From NCBI GenBank assembly GCA_921293015.1, contig OV121088.1, forward strand, positions 35,584,010-35,648,009: a stretch of 64,000 bases of DNA. The letters run 5' to 3'. Each line of letters starts with the position of its first letter. The first letter of the stretch is position 1. The stretch is from Phorcus lineatus (lineage: Eukaryota; Mollusca; Gastropoda; Trochida; Trochidae). This document shows positions 2,604 through 47,500 of this stretch, piece after piece. The notes below the pieces were generated by a model. It ran no database searches. It was not told the origin of the DNA and saw only the letters and a program-made list of their open reading frames with translations. Position numbers and translations under genes: made by a program.

Positions 2604-14916
<12,313 letters not shown>

Positions 14917-30353: not shown

Positions 30354-31094
30354 ATACCTCCATAAACTTAATTTCGTGACGTCACATCATTTTAAGCCAC
30401 GCCCATCGACGGAACTATTTGTAAACAAGTTACGTTTTTCTAAAAATAGCAACACTTTGTGCTCTCGCGGCCGTCGCAGGGATTTTGGCAAAGTAATGTC
30501 GTTAAGTTCATGAACAGAGTCAAGCTTGGCTCCTCAATAAGTTTAAGAACTGTGTGCTGTTTAATCAGATTCCGTTAGATCGAGATCATAACACAACCAG
30601 TATATGGCATCTACGAGGGTAAATTCGGCTGGTTTCCTCTCCGAGTTCTACGTTCGCGATTTGTGTTTACAACTGTGAGAACTAGCAATGTCAAGGCCAC
30701 GTGTGACGGACGTCCGATAAGTTCATGGCCACGTGCGTTGTAGATTTTCATTGGCTGATGAACGTTTTGTAGGCGGGGCTAGAGATCCGATGACGTTTTG
30801 ATTGACATTTTATCTCTTTCATGCTGTTGAGCGTTGGATTCATTCGCGTATATAGTGCAGCTCTATCTGGTGCAAATATGTATATTTAGAGCAATAAAAT
30901 GTTTTAAAAACAACTAGTATGTATATATTTATTTATAAGAATTGACTTCAACATTTATTAAGTTCATGGAGGTATAAACTTAAAAACCGATGTGCAAACT
31001 CGGCGTAAATCCGCTACGCGGATTCACACAGTTTGCACATCGGTTTTTAAGTTTATACCTCCATGAACTTAATAAATGTTGAAGTCAATTCTTA
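30354..31094. mobile_element. CpG-rich hairpin-ended element
   Basis: The left end reads ATACCTCCATAAACTTAAT. Its near-inverse TTAAGTTCATGGAGGTAT lies at 30,959, inside a 159-bp near-perfect hairpin (30,936-31,094) with a loop around CGTAAATCCGCTACGCGG. The body carries TGACGTCA (30,377-30,384), CCACGCCC and two CCACGTG boxes, and is more CpG-rich than its surroundings. The layout (CRE-like site, CpG-rich body, terminal hairpin) repeats that of the elements at 7,718 and 57,246. Confidence 0.55.
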
Positions 31095-31273: not shown

Positions 31274-31468
31274 TTAAACGGCCAGTTCGACCGGGTATTT
31301 TCTGTTCCACAAATATTCGGGAGGGAATTCCCTTTTGCACGCGACACGTAACTTTTTTATATATTCGATTTGTTTTCTATTTTCTGTGTTTACAACTTTT
31401 TCATGTTTGGTAATTAGTTGTAATCCGTCCTTCAAACTGAAAAAAATAGCGAAAACAATCGAAGCCAC
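31274..31468 (-). other. Short ORF ending in the left TIR
   Basis: Minus-strand frame of 64 residues that ends in a stop formed by the TTAA itself; the preceding TIR encodes part of PVELAV. A pyrimidine-rich acceptor-like TTTTTTTCAG lies inside it. It is basic and Lys-rich (NRKQIEYIKKLRVACKREF). It could be a remnant C-terminal exon of a transposon gene, or chance. Confidence 0.2.
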
Positions 31469-31821
31469 TGACCAGCACTACCAAGGGGCTTAACTCTATT
31501 GCGATCATGGCGGCCATTAGATTGTTGTCCGCTGCATGATTGATCTGCGTTGTAGTAACCTTGTAGTTACTTGGATGTTTTGATTGTTGGGGATTAATAA
31601 TGTAAATAATGTTTGCATAACTAATTATGACATCTCAAATGGCTAAGCTCAATCAATATGACACTGAGGAGAAAAGTGGCTTCGCTCCGGCTTCCCAATA
31701 TAAACAAAGATTCGTCCAGACTATCGCACTCCAAATTACTCACAGTGCTGCAGTTTTCCGTACATTAAAAACTTTATGTGAAGTAACTTAGATATCTTTC
31801 TTAAAAAAGAAGAGTTTTACT

Positions 31822-34330
31822 ATGAGTGAAGTTGTGCGAAGTCGAGGGCGACCGCGAAAGTACGATGGAAATTCGCCTGCGAGACGACAACAAGAGAGAA
31901 ATGCCAAGCGGATTTATTTGGGAGACCTTGCTCAAAAATGGAAAGACCTGAAATCGGCACTGAAATTTACGGACTTTGAACTGGCAAAGCATTTGCTTGA
32001 CAACCATGAGTTGACATGTGACTGCAAGTAAGTACAACTGTTTTTACTGTTGTTCACATGATAGGCTAATATAAACATGGTTATTTCTCTGGATGAAATT
32101 GCTTTTATCAACATGTCAATTCCATGATTTCATAAAGGAGTGACTGTTTTTGAAAAAAATGAAGGGAACTGTACTGTACAGTAGTTGTCAAAATTTGATG
32201 GGCATTGAAAAGATAGGTTCAACCAAAATTATTACTGCATAGTAAGGAAATACACATTTGAAGTTCATATATATCATAATTTTATTTCAGCCATAAGTAA
32301 TACTAATTGAAACGAATAAATAAATATAATTCAAGTATTATTGTAAGAATTCAATTTTAATGCTGGCATATATTGTTTAGCATTTTAGAGCTTATCATCT
32401 CCAACTTTGATAATATTGATGAAACTGAATGTCTTTCATGTCCTTTTCCTTATAGTCCATATATGTATACTAACTGATTCAATTATTGTTGTAATTTGCA
32501 GTTCCAAAACAGACCTGCCAGCACCTGAGATGCTGGGGGATCCGTGGGACAGAACCCCCCAACAAGAATGTCTCAAGCTCCCAACAGTGAGCACACCTCA
32601 GAAAAACCGAGATTTGGATATCATATCAAATGTTGCTGGTGGGTATTGACATTTTCAAAGGTATAAAATACAATATAGATGCTAGAGAGGTCTTTCCTGA
32701 TATCAAGCATATATCAATAACATTAATTTTAAACAGTTATGAATATCTGAGATTTGCTGAGGATATATTTCACTCCCATCAATTATGTCATATAAGCATT
32801 GTTTGATGATGTCAGGGCCTTCGGCCTTGTTCACAACACCAGAGTTTTGTTTAGATGTCAGAGCGTTCATTGATACTATCAGAGCTTTGTTGCTTTTGTT
32901 CAGTTTATTATTTTCAACAGATCTCAGTAATTACCTCTGAATTACCTCCCAATTTATGATTTAGTTTATGGTCCTTACAGAAAGTATGAACATGGAGATG
33001 TTTATTACAGAAATTCTGTTTCTATGCCCTTGACAGAAATTAATTTTTTATGAATCTATATATGGCCATATATGGCCATACATGATTATATTACCTAATG
33101 ATCACCTAATGATTTCTAATTTTCAGATCTGTCATTGATATCTATGCCGAGTTCTCCTACCAGTGACATGCAAACTGACGATGTTCCTACATCATGCAAT
33201 GAGTATGTTTATGTTACAAATCTGGAAATATTCCTATTGTCAATTGTATTGTTCACATGAATTCACATAGATTCTGCATGTGGATATACTTATCCCACAT
33301 CAAGAAATTTTTCATTAAAAATTTCTCACACATGATTATATGAATTAATTTTTTTTTTTATGAGCATATGATTAATATAGAAATATATTTTCCTTTACAA
33401 CAGACAGTTTGAAGATCTCTCTGACCACAACCTAGCTTCACCCTTGGAAGAGTTGAATGATGCTGTCAATTTGACCAGGTATGTGATTTATGCTGTTCTC
33501 TGAGCACATAAGAATAAACATTAAAATGTCACACTGAATAAGGATTTTACCAAATACCATCAAATACCGGTAATGACTATTTGCTCAAATATGGGCATAG
33601 GAAAGCTGATTTTTTTGGGGGGAATGGCATGGAGGAGACTCATGTTTGTAATTTTCCCCTTTTCCCTGAAACAATTTCTGTAAGGAAGTTAAACTTTTTA
33701 GAATACATTCTTTGTTGAATGCATATTAATTTTGATAACTCTTATCACAGATTATGCAATCCCCACCCTATAGTAATAAGACTGTAATAATATTAATAAT
33801 ACCTATTGAATTCAAAATGGTGAATTTATTATCATATTTACAGTGCCACCCTTGGGGAGAGCATCGACAGCATCAGCAGCCAAGATGACTTCCTTAATAT
33901 GTCACTGCCCGACATGGATGACAACGAGCCTATGCCTGGTCTTGACAGCGGCGAGGATTACCTGGATGCAATATCTTCAAAGAAATGTATAGCCTTTGTA
34001 CATTCTATTGTAGAATTAGTGAAGAATTCAACAGGACCTGTTTGTCAACAGTGTCAGAACAGTTTTGTGTTCACTTCAAGAATGGTGGCTACCGCTCTTG
34101 TGGTATCCTGGAATTGCCCCAAAGGACATTCCGGACAATGGTGTTCGCAACCAAAAATCAAGTCTATCTTCACAGGTAACCTTCAGATGGCTGCCAATAT
34201 ATTGCTCACCGGAAATTGTTTTTCAAAAATCGACCTGCTGTTTTCCTTCATGAACTTAGGATGTGTCACGAACACCTGTTCTCGGCTTCTGTGGGCATTG
34301 GCTTGCAATTCCCACAATGACACCACCTAA
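31822..34330 (+). CDS. Transposase-like protein with AT-hook, truncated
   Basis: Five exons: 31822-32027, 32502-32638, 33127-33202, 33404-33478 and 33844-34330. Phases are consistent and the total is 326 codons plus stop. Residues 7-14 form an AT-hook (SRGRPRKYDG). Residues 30-65 (IYLGDLAQKWKDLKSALKF..) look like a compact helical DNA-binding region. The middle is acidic and Ser-rich. The last exon has a CxxC (VCQQCQN) and then WNCPKGHSGQW, CSQP and GNLQMAANILLTGN, a pattern I recall from abundant invertebrate transposon-derived (Kolobok-like) proteins. Those run several hundred residues further, so this copy is cut short soon after FMNLGCVTNT, where a different sequence begins. It is spliced like a host gene but is probably part of the TTAA element and not catalytically complete. 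Confidence 0.65.
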
Positions 34331-36714
34331 CTGGAGCTTGGTCTGCAGGGGGCTGGGGATCCGGATCATCAAAGGCTGATACTGCTGTCTGAAGTGCTGT
34401 GTCATCCCGCAAGATCATCTTAGTCAGTAGCTCCCTTTTCGCTACCTCGTCCAAACCGTCAATGTACTTCTGCAATTGTAATATCAAAATAAATACAAAA
34501 AATTCAAGAATCAGATGTTGGTAATGGTAATGTACTGACCAAGGTTTGCATTAATCAATTCGATGTCACAATTGATTATGAGCTGGGATAATTGATTTGA
34601 CACTCGTCTTTGTTGAGAAATATCATATACAATAACATGTGTACATGATAATTAATTCCTAAAACTTACACATATAACAATTGAAAGCAACTTACTACTC
34701 ACAGATGTGAGAAATTAAAACTGATAATAGGTTACCTGGACTTTCAACAAGCTTTCAGGTGTTAGTTCCGAGGTGGTAGATGTAGGCTTGGCAGATGTCT
34801 TGGCCGATGCAGGCTTGGAAGATGTCTTGGCCGATTTCTTGGCTGATGCAGATGCAGACTTGACTTTAGATCTTGCAGGTGCAGGTAGTTTTGAAGACGC
34901 TGGCTTGATTTTGGAGGCGGTAGAAGGAATTGGTATTTTCGATTGTTTGCGGACTTTGGTGGGAATCTCTGGTACATCCAGCGGTAGAAACCTCTGCAAA
35001 CAGGATCATAATTTTAGATATAGTCACTATTAACGAAAACATATATCTTAACTTCATTTAGGTTAATTCTGTTGAAGATGCTTTTTAAATATGCCAATAT
35101 GCTATATGTTATTGTCCAAATCAAATATATAGGGCAATATATAAGATATAACATTACATTAATATAACCATGTATCATGAAAAAACAAACCTTTCTCTGC
35201 CTATAGTTTCCTTCTTGGTTCCTCACAAACTAAAATGAAAAAAAAATAATAATAAAAAAGTTTATGTCAAACGGAATACCAGAGCAAAGCAAGAAGTGAA
35301 TATTTATAATAAAAATAACTATTTACGAATATGAAATATTTTGATATTCTACATTATGTGATAGTAATGTTTCGTATACAAAGTCATAATAATTGGAATG
35401 AACTAATACATTTTTCAAATGTATGCCTATAATTTATGAATCAGCACATATATGACTTGATAAAGGGTATGGCTAGTGACCCTGTTATCGTGGTAACCCT
35501 ATTATCGTGGTAAACTCATTCAAGTCTCCAAAGTCTTCAAGGAATATTTGTATTTGCAAAGCACATCATAGATGAATAAACTAAATACTGAGGCATTCAA
35601 AAACTTTTTTTTTTAATTTTGAGTAATATTTTCTCACATTTTTAGTGATCTGAAATGTTGAGTTTCATTTTCCTTCATGAAGCATTCACTTCATTTGCAA
35701 TTAATTAAAAAACGATCCTGTCTTCACGAAATGTTGTCTGAGAGTTTTTCTATTTTGTATTTAAATAGTTTGATAGGTAACAAACAGAAAAATATGAAAG
35801 GAAAATGTATTGATGGTTTCAAAGATGTTGAATAAAGAATTACTTTTATTTCGAAAATAAGACCCAAATCCTAAAATTATGACCTTTTCGTTATATCAAA
35901 ATAGGTTACTAATGATCTCAAAATAGATTGCAACATTCTCTTTTCATTTTATAGGTACAATAAATGTGAAAACAAGGATCTCACTTTTCACGAGCAATGT
36001 AACAAATATTTTATATGTACTTTTATTGTTAAAGAACAGCATTTTGTTAAGATAGTGTTCAAATCACTTATCAAAAATGGCTGCTCAGTAAAACTACGAG
36101 GAGGAGTATTTCTATTAGGATTTTTTTGTTACAGGTTTGCAAATATTGTTTTTAATATCCTTATTTCAAATCAATTTATATTCAGTTTGTAAATAATAAT
36201 CTTACATTGGTGATTATATCTACAGAGAATAAATTATTAATTATATATTAATTACCTTGATAATAGGAACACTTCAGATAAAATACATAACACAGATAAG
36301 AATTTTTATATTTATGTCAAAAATTATATTTTCCATAGATAGAAGTTTAATTAACATATTTTGGAAGGATATATGTGCAGAGCTTAAAAACAAGAAACAA
36401 TATTTAGATTGTACTCATTTAGAGGGAAATATACATGTGACGCAATAAGACCCACGATAATAGGGACCACCTTCATAGTAGATAATTATATTATGATTCT
36501 TGTGAACAAGGTAATGTTTTCTGGAAGAAAGACTCGCCGCACTTACCTCCGCAAAGGACAGGTCGCCGTCAATCGGTTGATCTTCGCGGTTTGTACACGG
36601 AAGTAAATGACCACACTGACATAGATCGCTGCAATATCTCTTCATCTGCTTACAAGGACATGATCCACGTTTTCCTGACCGAGAACAAGTGTTGTTGCAC
36701 TGACAGCTCGCCAT
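34266..36714 (-). CDS. CXC-like plus P2X7C-like protein, truncated
   Basis: Four phase-0 exons: 36714-36547, 35229-35191, 34993-34736 and 34469-34266; 222 codons plus stop. The N-terminus has a dense Cys array (CQCNNTC..GSCPCKQMKRYCSDLCQCG), probably zinc-binding. The middle exon is a Lys/Ala/Ser-rich linker with repeated SAKTS/KPAS motifs. The last exon has RWCHCGNCKPMPTEAENRC, the start of the Cys-rich domain named after the P2X7 receptor C-tail, which occurs in many transposon-linked invertebrate proteins. That domain normally continues for about 80-100 residues with further Cys and His, but here a stop follows immediately. The gene converges on and overlaps the plus-strand transposase-like gene by 65 bp. 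Confidence 0.65.
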
Positions 36715-37144
36715 GATCGAAATTGAGGAAAAAACGCATGGTCATCTGTATTTATATGTTCATTTTGATTGATTCGTGGACATGTCACAATGTCCCTTCT
36801 CTTTTGACACTGGCACATGACCAAGTACCCCGCATCACCCCTCAGACCCATTCGACACGCTGACACAAACGTGATTGTCGCCATGTTGTGAAAACATGCA
36901 GCGTTGCATTATGGGAAGGGACTTTTCTCATTCTATTTATAGATCTACTTAACTGCTGACGCACTGTATCTAAAAATAGCTTCGTTAGCAGCATAAGCTT
37001 ATCGCTGAAAACGTAATCGAACTGGCCGTTTAACTAGTCAATTGTTTTATTTAAAAAAAAAACACTGTCATTTAACCGGACAGCGTTTGGTATTTTCTAT
37101 GATGTTCCAATTTGCAAATTGCTTCAGTAAAATTCATAATGGGT

Positions 37145-44518: not shown

Positions 44519-47500
44519 TCAAAATGAACTTGGACCTAGCGCATTCATATCTCTATTTTCAACATTCATGACTTTCTTTCCACCGTAGAGCCATCCCGAC
44601 AAGGACGACCAGGTGGATTGGGTAGAATCAACTGTATCAGTAGGCACATTTGTCTTTATAACACCCCCTTCAAAAGAACTTTCCTTTTTCTTAGTGTCCT
44701 TGGCATCTCTGACAGCAAGAGCAGTGTTCGATGACGAAACATCTGTGCTTTTTGACGCAACGACCATTGCTTGAAGATTTGTGCCAGAAGATCCACGGAC
44801 CATTTTTGAGATTGGCCCAAGCTGAGGATTTTGGATACCAATCTGATGTGTTTTCTCGAAAAGTTTGACGGCAGCCTTGGAGGAGGGCTCTGTTCCGATG
44901 CTACCATGCGGCGAGCTGCTGTCAAGTCCGATACCTTGATCGTCGAACTTTGCTGTGAACTGTTGTTTCAAGACTTCAGAGGGCTTCTTACTTATGATGA
45001 GTTTTGGTATGATGACATCTGGGGATGCAGCGATGCTTGATGTATCTGTGGGTTAGAAATGTCGGATTGGTTAAACTTGTTTTGAAAAGAAAGGTTCCAT
45101 GATATATAATACATAATTTGAGGTTGCTAAAAAGGGAACAATGAAATGAATCAAATGACCTGAAAAGAAATAATCAATAGTTTGATTTTTCATAAAATCT
45201 ACTATTTTCTATGACAAAGTGTAGATGAAAATTATATACACAAACAATGAATGGAGAACAGGTGGGTAAGCTAATTATCTAAATAATGTTTTTTTCAATG
45301 GCAAAACATCTCAATCTTTTCGGTACACCGAGGCAAAAAGTAAGGTAATTATTGTAAAGGATCCTCATTTATAATATCACTACATCGCAGTATCCTGCTC
45401 TCAAACAACCATTTATCATAATAATAAGTTATTTCATCTATACCCATTAACATAAACATAAACTTACTATGTTTATTTTTTATTATAATTTTATTTCTTT
45501 TAAACAGGTACATTTAAACATATTAAACATGTAGTTTTGTTCAACACAATAGACTACTATGTTTATAGTACCAAAAAAAAAAAAATCAAAAAAAAACAAA
45601 AAAAAACACTACTTCATTACTACTACAACTTCTAGAATGCCACTATAGGAGTTCATAAACTTACTAGTTCAACAGCAGAAGTTTTATCAACACCTTCTTC
45701 TAACAAACTCACATGCACACAAGTGACACTGCCTGTATCAACTGCCTACAGCACGAGCTGAGTGAAAGTGCTCTGACTTATGTCAAGCTGTTTAAAAGAT
45801 CATGGGTGGCACAACATTACACAATTTCTAAAGCTTGTCCACATGGAACACAAATTGCATCACAGGTTACACAATAGAGGAAGGCTTCACAGGTCAGTGA
45901 CCTCACCTGCAGTCAATTTTCTTTCAGGTGACAATCAAAAGGACATTAATATAGTGGAGAAAGAAATTTCTATATTATTTGTACATCAAACGAAAGAAGT
46001 TGTATATGCTTTCAACAAGGATAATTATTTCAGGAGGTTGGATACAAAATTACTCAAAAATTACGTTTAGTGTTTTTATACAATTTGTGGTTTTCTTAAC
46101 TGATGTATTCCTCTGAAAAAAAAAGAGAAAATAGTTTTTAATTGCAAAATGTGGGTAAAATATTCAATAAGCTTCAATGCAGGAAGAAATTCATTCAAAA
46201 TATGATTTTTCTTTTGTGACACATTGGCAAATTTAAAATTTTTTTTTTTATATGTTTCCATAATAATTTTCTTCTAAAAAATGACTTTGTGTGAGACATA
46301 TGCAATTCACCAATTGAGTGTATGCGCACACAAAGAATTCCAACCTTTTAAGAAAAGAGCAAGTATATGGATATAAAAAATACCAGATTTATAAAATACT
46401 TCGAAAAAATACAGATAAAGATAAAAATGTTTCAACAAAAAGCATGATCTGCATCATCGTGTATGTTTGTATCCTTGGTTTGACAATATTTTCATTTCTT
46501 ATGAAATTTGGATTGTGGAACAAGCCATTTGGCTTATTCTAACCCCACTCCAAAATAAAATTCATCAAGCTTGATACAAAACATAACAACAAAATCGAAA
46601 AATACAAAACTAATGAAAACATATTTGTGATATAAATATCAAATTATACTGAAAATTATCAAGTAGTTTTGGGTATGCCTAGTCATTGGGTTAACTGCAA
46701 CTTATGATTATAAACGTTAATCAAATTCAAAGTAATTTTAGTGATTGAGGCAATCAAGAAAATCGTTTACTGATGAACTCATGTAGAGAATTAAGAATAT
46801 ATTTGAAGGACTCGGATCTGTGGCAGGTCTCTAATCTATGGCGGATTTCCTTATCTGTGGCGCGTCTAATTGTAAGACTGTTTCATAACGTCATGCTAGG
46901 TGACGTCATTGTGCGATGACGTCATAATAGCTAACTGTTCTCGTCGTAAGGCCTAATTGCGTCGCTAGCGAAATAATTAGGAAAGTCACAGAGAGATATT
47001 GCAAACGGATAACAACCAAATAATAAGAGTCCAAATATGAAAATACATTAAACAATACCTTACATGTAAATAAGACATTTACGGCTTCATGCCACATCAA
47101 TTGTGTTTATTTTGTAGGATCATTTTGTAGAGTCTTACTCTTACATATTACTTTTCGTTAAGTAGCTCAAATTTGCCACTTCCTTATAGAACTGTATTCT
47201 TCACTGAATCTGTATAACTGCCATTATCAAACTCCTCAATCAACACTGGTGCCACCTCTTCATGTCTTTGCAAAAAAAGGATTAAACACTGAAATATCTT
47301 TCTTTCTCACCTGAGTTAGATTTATGATCTTCTTGATGCAGAGTGTGGAATTTACTCTTACGAGGTTTGAATCTAATAGGTATAGGAAAATCGTCATGCA
47401 CTGGAGGCGATGATGACATCAAACTATCTTCTTCAAACTGGCTGTATCGATCTCCCATCCCACGGAAAACGCCAAACACATTAGTTTGAGTAGAACTACC

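Follow-up and report, generated by a model that had tools for sequence, protein, structure and literature searches.

What kind of unit lies between two short, perfect inverted repeats in the genome of Phorcus lineatus, and what are the two genes that run towards each other inside it? The stretch of DNA analysed here (the window) comprises 64,000 nucleotides, positions 35,584,010 to 35,648,009 of the forward strand of contig OV121088.1 in assembly GCA_921293015.1. It is part of the contig with the working label C13 in this 957.8-Mb assembly, which all genome-wide counts below cover. The element, at 31274-37033 of the window, is very probably a non-autonomous derivative, shortened by an internal deletion, of a young DNA transposon with TTAA at both ends. 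This transposon would resemble the Kolobok superfamily in its mode of action and most likely belongs to it (Kol0 type). The 11,151-bp parent of the window element carries a DDE transposase gene and, tail to tail with it, a KolX gene.

Ends, copies and age of the family

The element has perfect 13-bp terminal inverted repeats (TIRs), ACGGCCAGTTCGA, at 31278-31290 (plus strand) and 37017-37029 (minus strand). They are abutted by the target duplication TTAA at 31274-31277 and 37030-37033, exactly as a preliminary description of the locus had it. The 17-mer made of TTAA and TIR occurs at 415 exact places genome-wide (201 forward, 214 reverse), and the reversed pattern, used as a control, at none. 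Exact 40-bp ends are found at 208 places (left) and 206 places (right). When TTAA is omitted from the pattern, the left 36-mer is found at 211 places, 208 of which are preceded by TTAA. This count, read at occupied sites, is the evidence for the TTAA target; the 40 end pairs that were fetched (11 long and 29 short) were selected with TTAA in the pattern and all have it by construction. In one copy (L029) the left end is preceded by ATAT, an exception to strict TTAA targeting that may reflect rearrangement or later mutation.

In 60 Markov-resampled windows, TTAA-abutted 13-bp perfect inverted repeats 0.1-10 kb apart were found 0.03 times on average and at most once. The real window has 14 TTAA-abutted 13-bp pairs at any spacing, most of them in palindromic stretches, including seven within a single large palindrome. 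Because of these 14 pairs the window alone is no clean null, and the genome-wide count of TTAA with TIR is the better test. A longer TIR was excluded: 6 of 8 positions just outside the TTAAs match in inverted orientation, but the flanks of other copies differ. A TIR-like site at 47433 (2 mismatches) is at chance level only. No second copy of the element was found within the 64-kb window, and no relatives were found in separate collections of viral contigs and genome contigs.

In the preliminary description the locus is a DNA transposon, bounded by TTAA, in which a transposase-like gene and a P2X7C-like gene converge. This is borne out by full-length two-gene copies between TTAA sites at other loci. 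Two of these (L038 and L032, on contigs C9 and C39) measure 11,151 bp from TTAA to TTAA, are 3 bases apart and have different flanks; a third long copy (L031) is 10,480 bp. The bases beyond TTAA vary between copies. A further 11 places were fetched via a transposase exon (a twelfth is L015), with right-hand stretches for three of them. The window copy itself is not the intact two-gene unit that it was taken for. It consists of 1-2989 and 8389-11151 of L038, joined at 34271-34272 with a 2-bp overlap, and this internal deletion of about 5.4 kb truncated both genes.

The 40 fetched deletion copies have 8 mismatches to L038 in 89,269 aligned bases, that is 0.009% (small indels not counted). Near-identity of this degree suggests recent activity; at animal neutral rates it would place a burst within about the last 100,000 years. 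It seems that the genome is seen here shortly after the element multiplied, and almost all copies examined carry damage of their own. Five 750-bp copies lie within 34 kb (C2:65768323-65801956), perhaps as a tandem segmental duplication of one insertion; one of them was fetched.

Genes of the parent and its place among DNA transposons

In L038 the transposase gene has 11 exons encoding 694 amino acids and the KolX gene 4 exons encoding 320 amino acids (exon limits are modelled). The two genes are convergent, with stops about 1.2 kb apart, and both reading frames are open in the genomic DNA of full-length copies. Against Pfam, the transposase matches PF20700 (Mutator-like transposase, E 4.3e-12), MULE below threshold (E 0.0028) and, weakly, AT_hook. 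Its putative catalytic motifs (residue roles were assigned by motif) are GDGRNDSP at 349 (D350 or D354), D416, DVWH at 437-440 (the C/DxxH motif) and E564 in HTGSLEVFH at 559. An H2CH zinc finger, HVCNKHEWAVSELTDGQCAH, is recognized by inspection at 496-515 (H-X4-H-X11-C-X-H), between DVWH and E564. KolX ends in the zinc-ballast domain known from the cytoplasmic part of P2X7, which makes up its C-terminal half: it matches PF20478 at E 2.1e-34, and its C-terminal 177 amino acids match P2X7 chains in PDB at E 2.4e-20. Its seven ballast cysteines are Cys 205, 207, 210, 221, 222, 229, and 295. Two foldback palindromes lie in transposase introns of the full-length element (about 3480-3590 and 6000-6110 in the coordinates of L038; seen in L017 and L015), and these are perhaps older miniature inverted-repeat transposable elements (MITEs) nested in the parent.

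The family shares with Kolobok a TTAA target, a DDD/E transposase with C/DxxH between the second aspartate (D2) and the glutamate (E), and an H2CH finger, and it shares with Kol0 a KolX gene with ballast fold and seven cysteines. The accessory gene, regarded in the preliminary description as unusual cargo, is in fact KolX, already known to accompany the transposase in Kolobok elements of the Kol0 type (PMC9587614). Several points weigh against this placement. The termini are 5'-AC...GT-3' and not the 5'-RR...YY-3' of Kolobok; the best Pfam match of the transposase is named Mutator-like, not Kolobok; and three of the 211 left ends are without exact TTAA. In addition, no THAP domain, called usual for Kolobok transposases (PMC6004289), is found in the transposase by Pfam at E up to 1.

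A MuDR/Mutator-like element would explain the PF20700 match and the sub-threshold MULE match, and is nevertheless improbable. MuDR makes target duplications of 8-11 bp, while TTAA flanks both sides here and is the only constant part, the bases beyond it being variable. The H2CH finger and the KolX partner also argue against MuDR. Still less credible is that the element is a piggyBac whose accessory gene is KolX-like. Both piggyBac and Kolobok had been named for the locus on account of TTAA, which is at the ends here and which piggyBac also uses; Kolobok proves to be the better guess. The ends of piggyBac are of the CCY type and those here begin with ACGG. The transposase has DVWH and an H2CH finger between D2 and E, and its Pfam matches at E up to 1 are PF20700, MULE and AT_hook, with no piggyBac model among them. 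A few piggyBac families are described as encoding a protein like the C-terminus of KolX, but these versions are without most of the seven cysteines, all of which KolX keeps here (Kojima & Bao 2022, PMC9587614). The least tenable reading, that two host genes (spliced, with GT-AG introns) lie between chance repeats or form a domesticated pair, is refuted by the copy number (hundreds of places have the same ends) and by unrelated flanks, and both genes are truncated here.

Besides this probable Kol0-type Kolobok family, the genome has other families with the same two genes. PF20478 has at least 150 scored matches among 228 candidates, and the transposase segment from the first to the second aspartate (D1-D2) is found at 48 places. 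A listed KolX lies within 10 kb of 39 of the 48 (13 of the window-element family and 26 others, with transposase identity down to 32%), and the nearest KolX is convergent in all 39, whether part of the KolX list or all 150 matches are used. The remaining 9 have no KolX within 10 kb among the matches listed. One extra, non-convergent KolX match within 10 kb comes from a neighbouring copy on contig C15. At two KolX-transposase loci that were read (L063 and L064), KolX and transposase pieces are tail to tail. The transposase-side end of L063 is TTAA-AGGGACCCTTCGA..., which starts with 5'-AGGG and is identical to the end of the window-element family at 13 of 17 positions; the other end of L063 was looked for and not found. 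Several diverged families coexist (e.g., C13:14754498, C5:17073245, and C2:2310086), some with stops, and they are a resource for the evolution of KolX. Exon 4 of KolX has 66% amino acid identity across two families, with a nonsynonymous divergence (dN) of 0.24 and saturated synonymous divergence (dS). KolX would most likely be a transposition regulator that binds nucleic acid or a partner, kept by the element under purifying selection.

Deletion copies and the survival of KolX

None of the 40 fetched pairs is full length, and they contain 39 different main junctions. The junction 631/11023 is common to L026 and L046, whose flanks are different. When the window copy, L031 and a second junction in L018 are added to the 40 pairs (the shared junction being counted twice), 26 of 43 junctions (60%) have an overlap of at least 2 bp, compared with 19% of random junctions, and 4 carry 3-13 inserted bases. 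This pattern is what incomplete gap repair with joining at microhomologies would be expected to leave, and it is neutral on whether deletion came before or after insertion. The transposase would cut the element at TTAA and paste it into a new TTAA. Deletion copies would then arise by incomplete repair of the donor-site gap or of the excised element, with the incompletely repaired ends joined at short microhomologies, and defective copies having both ends could be mobilised in trans. Drosophila P elements similarly have many different internal deletions with both ends kept. These deletions are attributed to incomplete gap repair, with microhomology as part of the mechanism; P elements belong to a different superfamily and are without KolX. 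The finding of 39 different junctions in 40 copies at 0.009% divergence is possibly new, and it documents the formation of defective transposon copies with unusual clarity.

The deletions do not affect the two genes equally. As exact markers, transposase exon 5 (2857-2903) is found at 18 places, the exon encoding the putative catalytic glutamate (5628-5694) at 12, and the KolX ballast exon (8196-8242) at 79, the distance of the KolX marker from the right end being close to that of the exon 5 marker from the left end. This difference in survival, 79 places for the KolX ballast exon and 12 for the glutamate exon, is possibly a new observation. KolX lies within 8 kb of 17 of the 18 exon 5 places, the exception being the window copy. 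KolX is present without exon 5 at 62 places and exon 5 without KolX at 1; the sign test gives 1.4e-17 if the places are independent, and the evidence is weaker than this because some places look like segmental duplicates. A similar result is obtained when listed left ends are joined with right ends. Of 100 left ends 97 were used, three on C15 being excluded because the right ends listed reach only to C13, and these yielded 89 pairs. Eight of the 97 are unpaired, including the window copy, whose right end lies outside the listed right ends. Among the 89 pairs, 56 are 706-1145 bp and 33 are longer. The KolX marker is present in 29 of the 33 longer pairs, and pairs with KolX and without exon 5 outnumber the opposite kind by 23 to 0. 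Thirteen long deletion copies (the window copy, L009-L019 and L031) were read at base level. The transposase is partly lost in all 13, and in 10 the deletions are wholly outside the KolX coding span (8090-10832). The exceptions are the window copy, L013 and L018, the last of which keeps the marker and has a second deletion inside KolX. In a sister family there are 12 KolX places among the matches listed versus 4 transposase D1-D2 places at 78-79% identity.

One could go further and suppose that nearly every insertion has its own fresh deletion, that the copies form two main classes (gene-less ones of 0.7-1.1 kb, and ones of about 4.7-8.4 kb with the transposase lost and KolX mostly kept), and that KolX retention is selected, with KolX as a cis-preferring helper or a repressor and not a passenger. 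We regard this as a tentative and rather unlikely proposal. A purely mechanical breakpoint bias may be the source of the KolX surplus. If retention is selected, it would give a testable job to the transposon ancestor of the P2X7 ballast domain.

The idea that the short copies come in discrete sizes (about 750, 955, and 1150 bp) was rejected. In 28 short copies (29 were fetched and L046 was dropped for its common junction) the gap 785-909 was empty, which none of 20,000 permutations reproduced; the permutation P for the largest gap was 0.023. The prediction was fixed before an out-of-sample test, in which 8 of 21 new short pairs fell in 785-905. A negative correlation of left and right breakpoints within a size class was also discarded as biased, the class being chosen on total length.

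The genes of the window copy were modelled, with their exon limits, as five exons on the plus strand and four on the minus strand. This convergent spliced pair agrees with the preliminary description: all seven introns are GT-AG, and the same exons form complete genes in full-length copies. Transposase exon 1 (31822-32027) has a GRPRK AT-hook-like motif, and exons 2 to 4 (32502-32638, 33127-33202, and 33404-33478) follow from the splice model. A 10-bp tandem duplication in intron 2 (33060-33079) is absent from L038. Exon 5 (33844-34330) is genuine to 34271, beyond which residues out of context run on to a stop. Exons 6-11 and the portion of exon 5 with D1/D2 are missing, and with them the DDE domain. 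On the minus strand, KolX exon 1 (36547-36714) encodes a Cys-rich N-terminus with 9 cysteines, exon 2 (35191-35229) is based on the splice model and the full-length copy, exon 3 (34736-34993) encodes a K/S/A-rich linker, and the truncated exon 4 (34266-34469) encodes the beginning of the P2X7-like ballast domain, with four of the seven cysteines, before a stop made by the junction. The last part of KolX, including three ballast cysteines, is missing.

The plus-strand protein (326 amino acids) has no transposase match in Pfam at E up to 1, and only the C-terminal piece of the minus-strand protein matches P2RX7_C (profile 64-98 of 192, E 0.0015). Among 90 of the 134 stop-to-stop frames of the element (at least 25 amino acids), P2RX7_C matches one, and none matches a DDE model with E up to 0.1. 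The best PDB match obtained with the whole truncated window proteins, to a coat protein (E 0.00076), falls within the linker and is regarded as spurious. The plus-strand gene had been called AT-hook/transposase-like; it is a transposase gene whose DDE domain is deleted here, and the AT-hook is a sub-threshold Pfam match around GRPRK. For the minus-strand gene the P2X7C-like part of the description is right and the CXC part is not supported by Pfam (E 3.1), the exon being Cys-rich by inspection. Outside the transposon, a foldback element lies 180 bp to its left (30936-31094; a 65-bp perfect inverted repeat with a 29-bp loop). Nested perfect inverted matches centred near 6259 mark a large near-perfect palindrome at about 4988-7531, with arms of about 1 kb, in which identical open reading frames are found at 5015-5435 (plus) and 7084-7504 (minus).

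Comparison with known systems

Set against the published description of Kol0, the family of the window element is most likely new, and its kind is already known. Like Kol0 (Kolobok-1_XT), it has TTAA, a DDE transposase in which C/DxxH and a zinc finger precede E, and a KolX with the P2X7 ballast fold and seven cysteines (PMC9587614). It differs from Kol0 as described there in ends that start with 5'-AC and not 5'-RR (5'-AG in the sister family L063), in the absence of a THAP match, and in a KolX whose first exon is Cys-rich and whose K/S/A linker is long. XKol of Xenopus is also reported to have TTAA sites and a DDE transposase with H2CH (PMC6004289). Its full-length copies are 6.8-13.9 kb, are thought to be active and have associated MITEs, which we count as a likeness. 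Unlike the window-element family, XKol has a THAP domain and AG ends, and KolX and P2X7 are not mentioned in the main text of that report. KolobokP belongs to the same superfamily and is described as having its transposase and accessory genes on opposite strands, as here (PMC9587614). It is distinguished by long terminal direct repeats and a His-Me nuclease; here KolX is the accessory gene, and the window copy was found to have no long terminal direct repeat.

The P2X7 ballast domain and Nanor share with KolX the ballast/ZCD domain, the WCxCxxC motif, the CC...C cluster and the PSC motif (PMC7016195). Rump et al. 2020 (PMC7016195) describe the ballast domain across animals, including stand-alone proteins, and take two linked markers as ancestral synteny. 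Unlike the situation of the transposon-borne KolX here, transposons are not mentioned in their main text. Since the ballast domain is carried by transposons, part of the reported synteny may be due to the transposon. According to Kojima & Bao 2022 (PMC9587614), KolX is a gene of Kol0 elements, its protein has the fold of the P2X7 ballast domain, and a fusion with KolX gave rise to P2X7, which makes KolX the published source of the P2X7 ballast domain; in the parts of that paper drawn on here no function is stated for KolX. In P. lineatus this function is directly testable, because 11.15-kb copies with both frames open exist together with scores of derivatives that lack the transposase and keep KolX or have no genes, from an apparently very recent burst.
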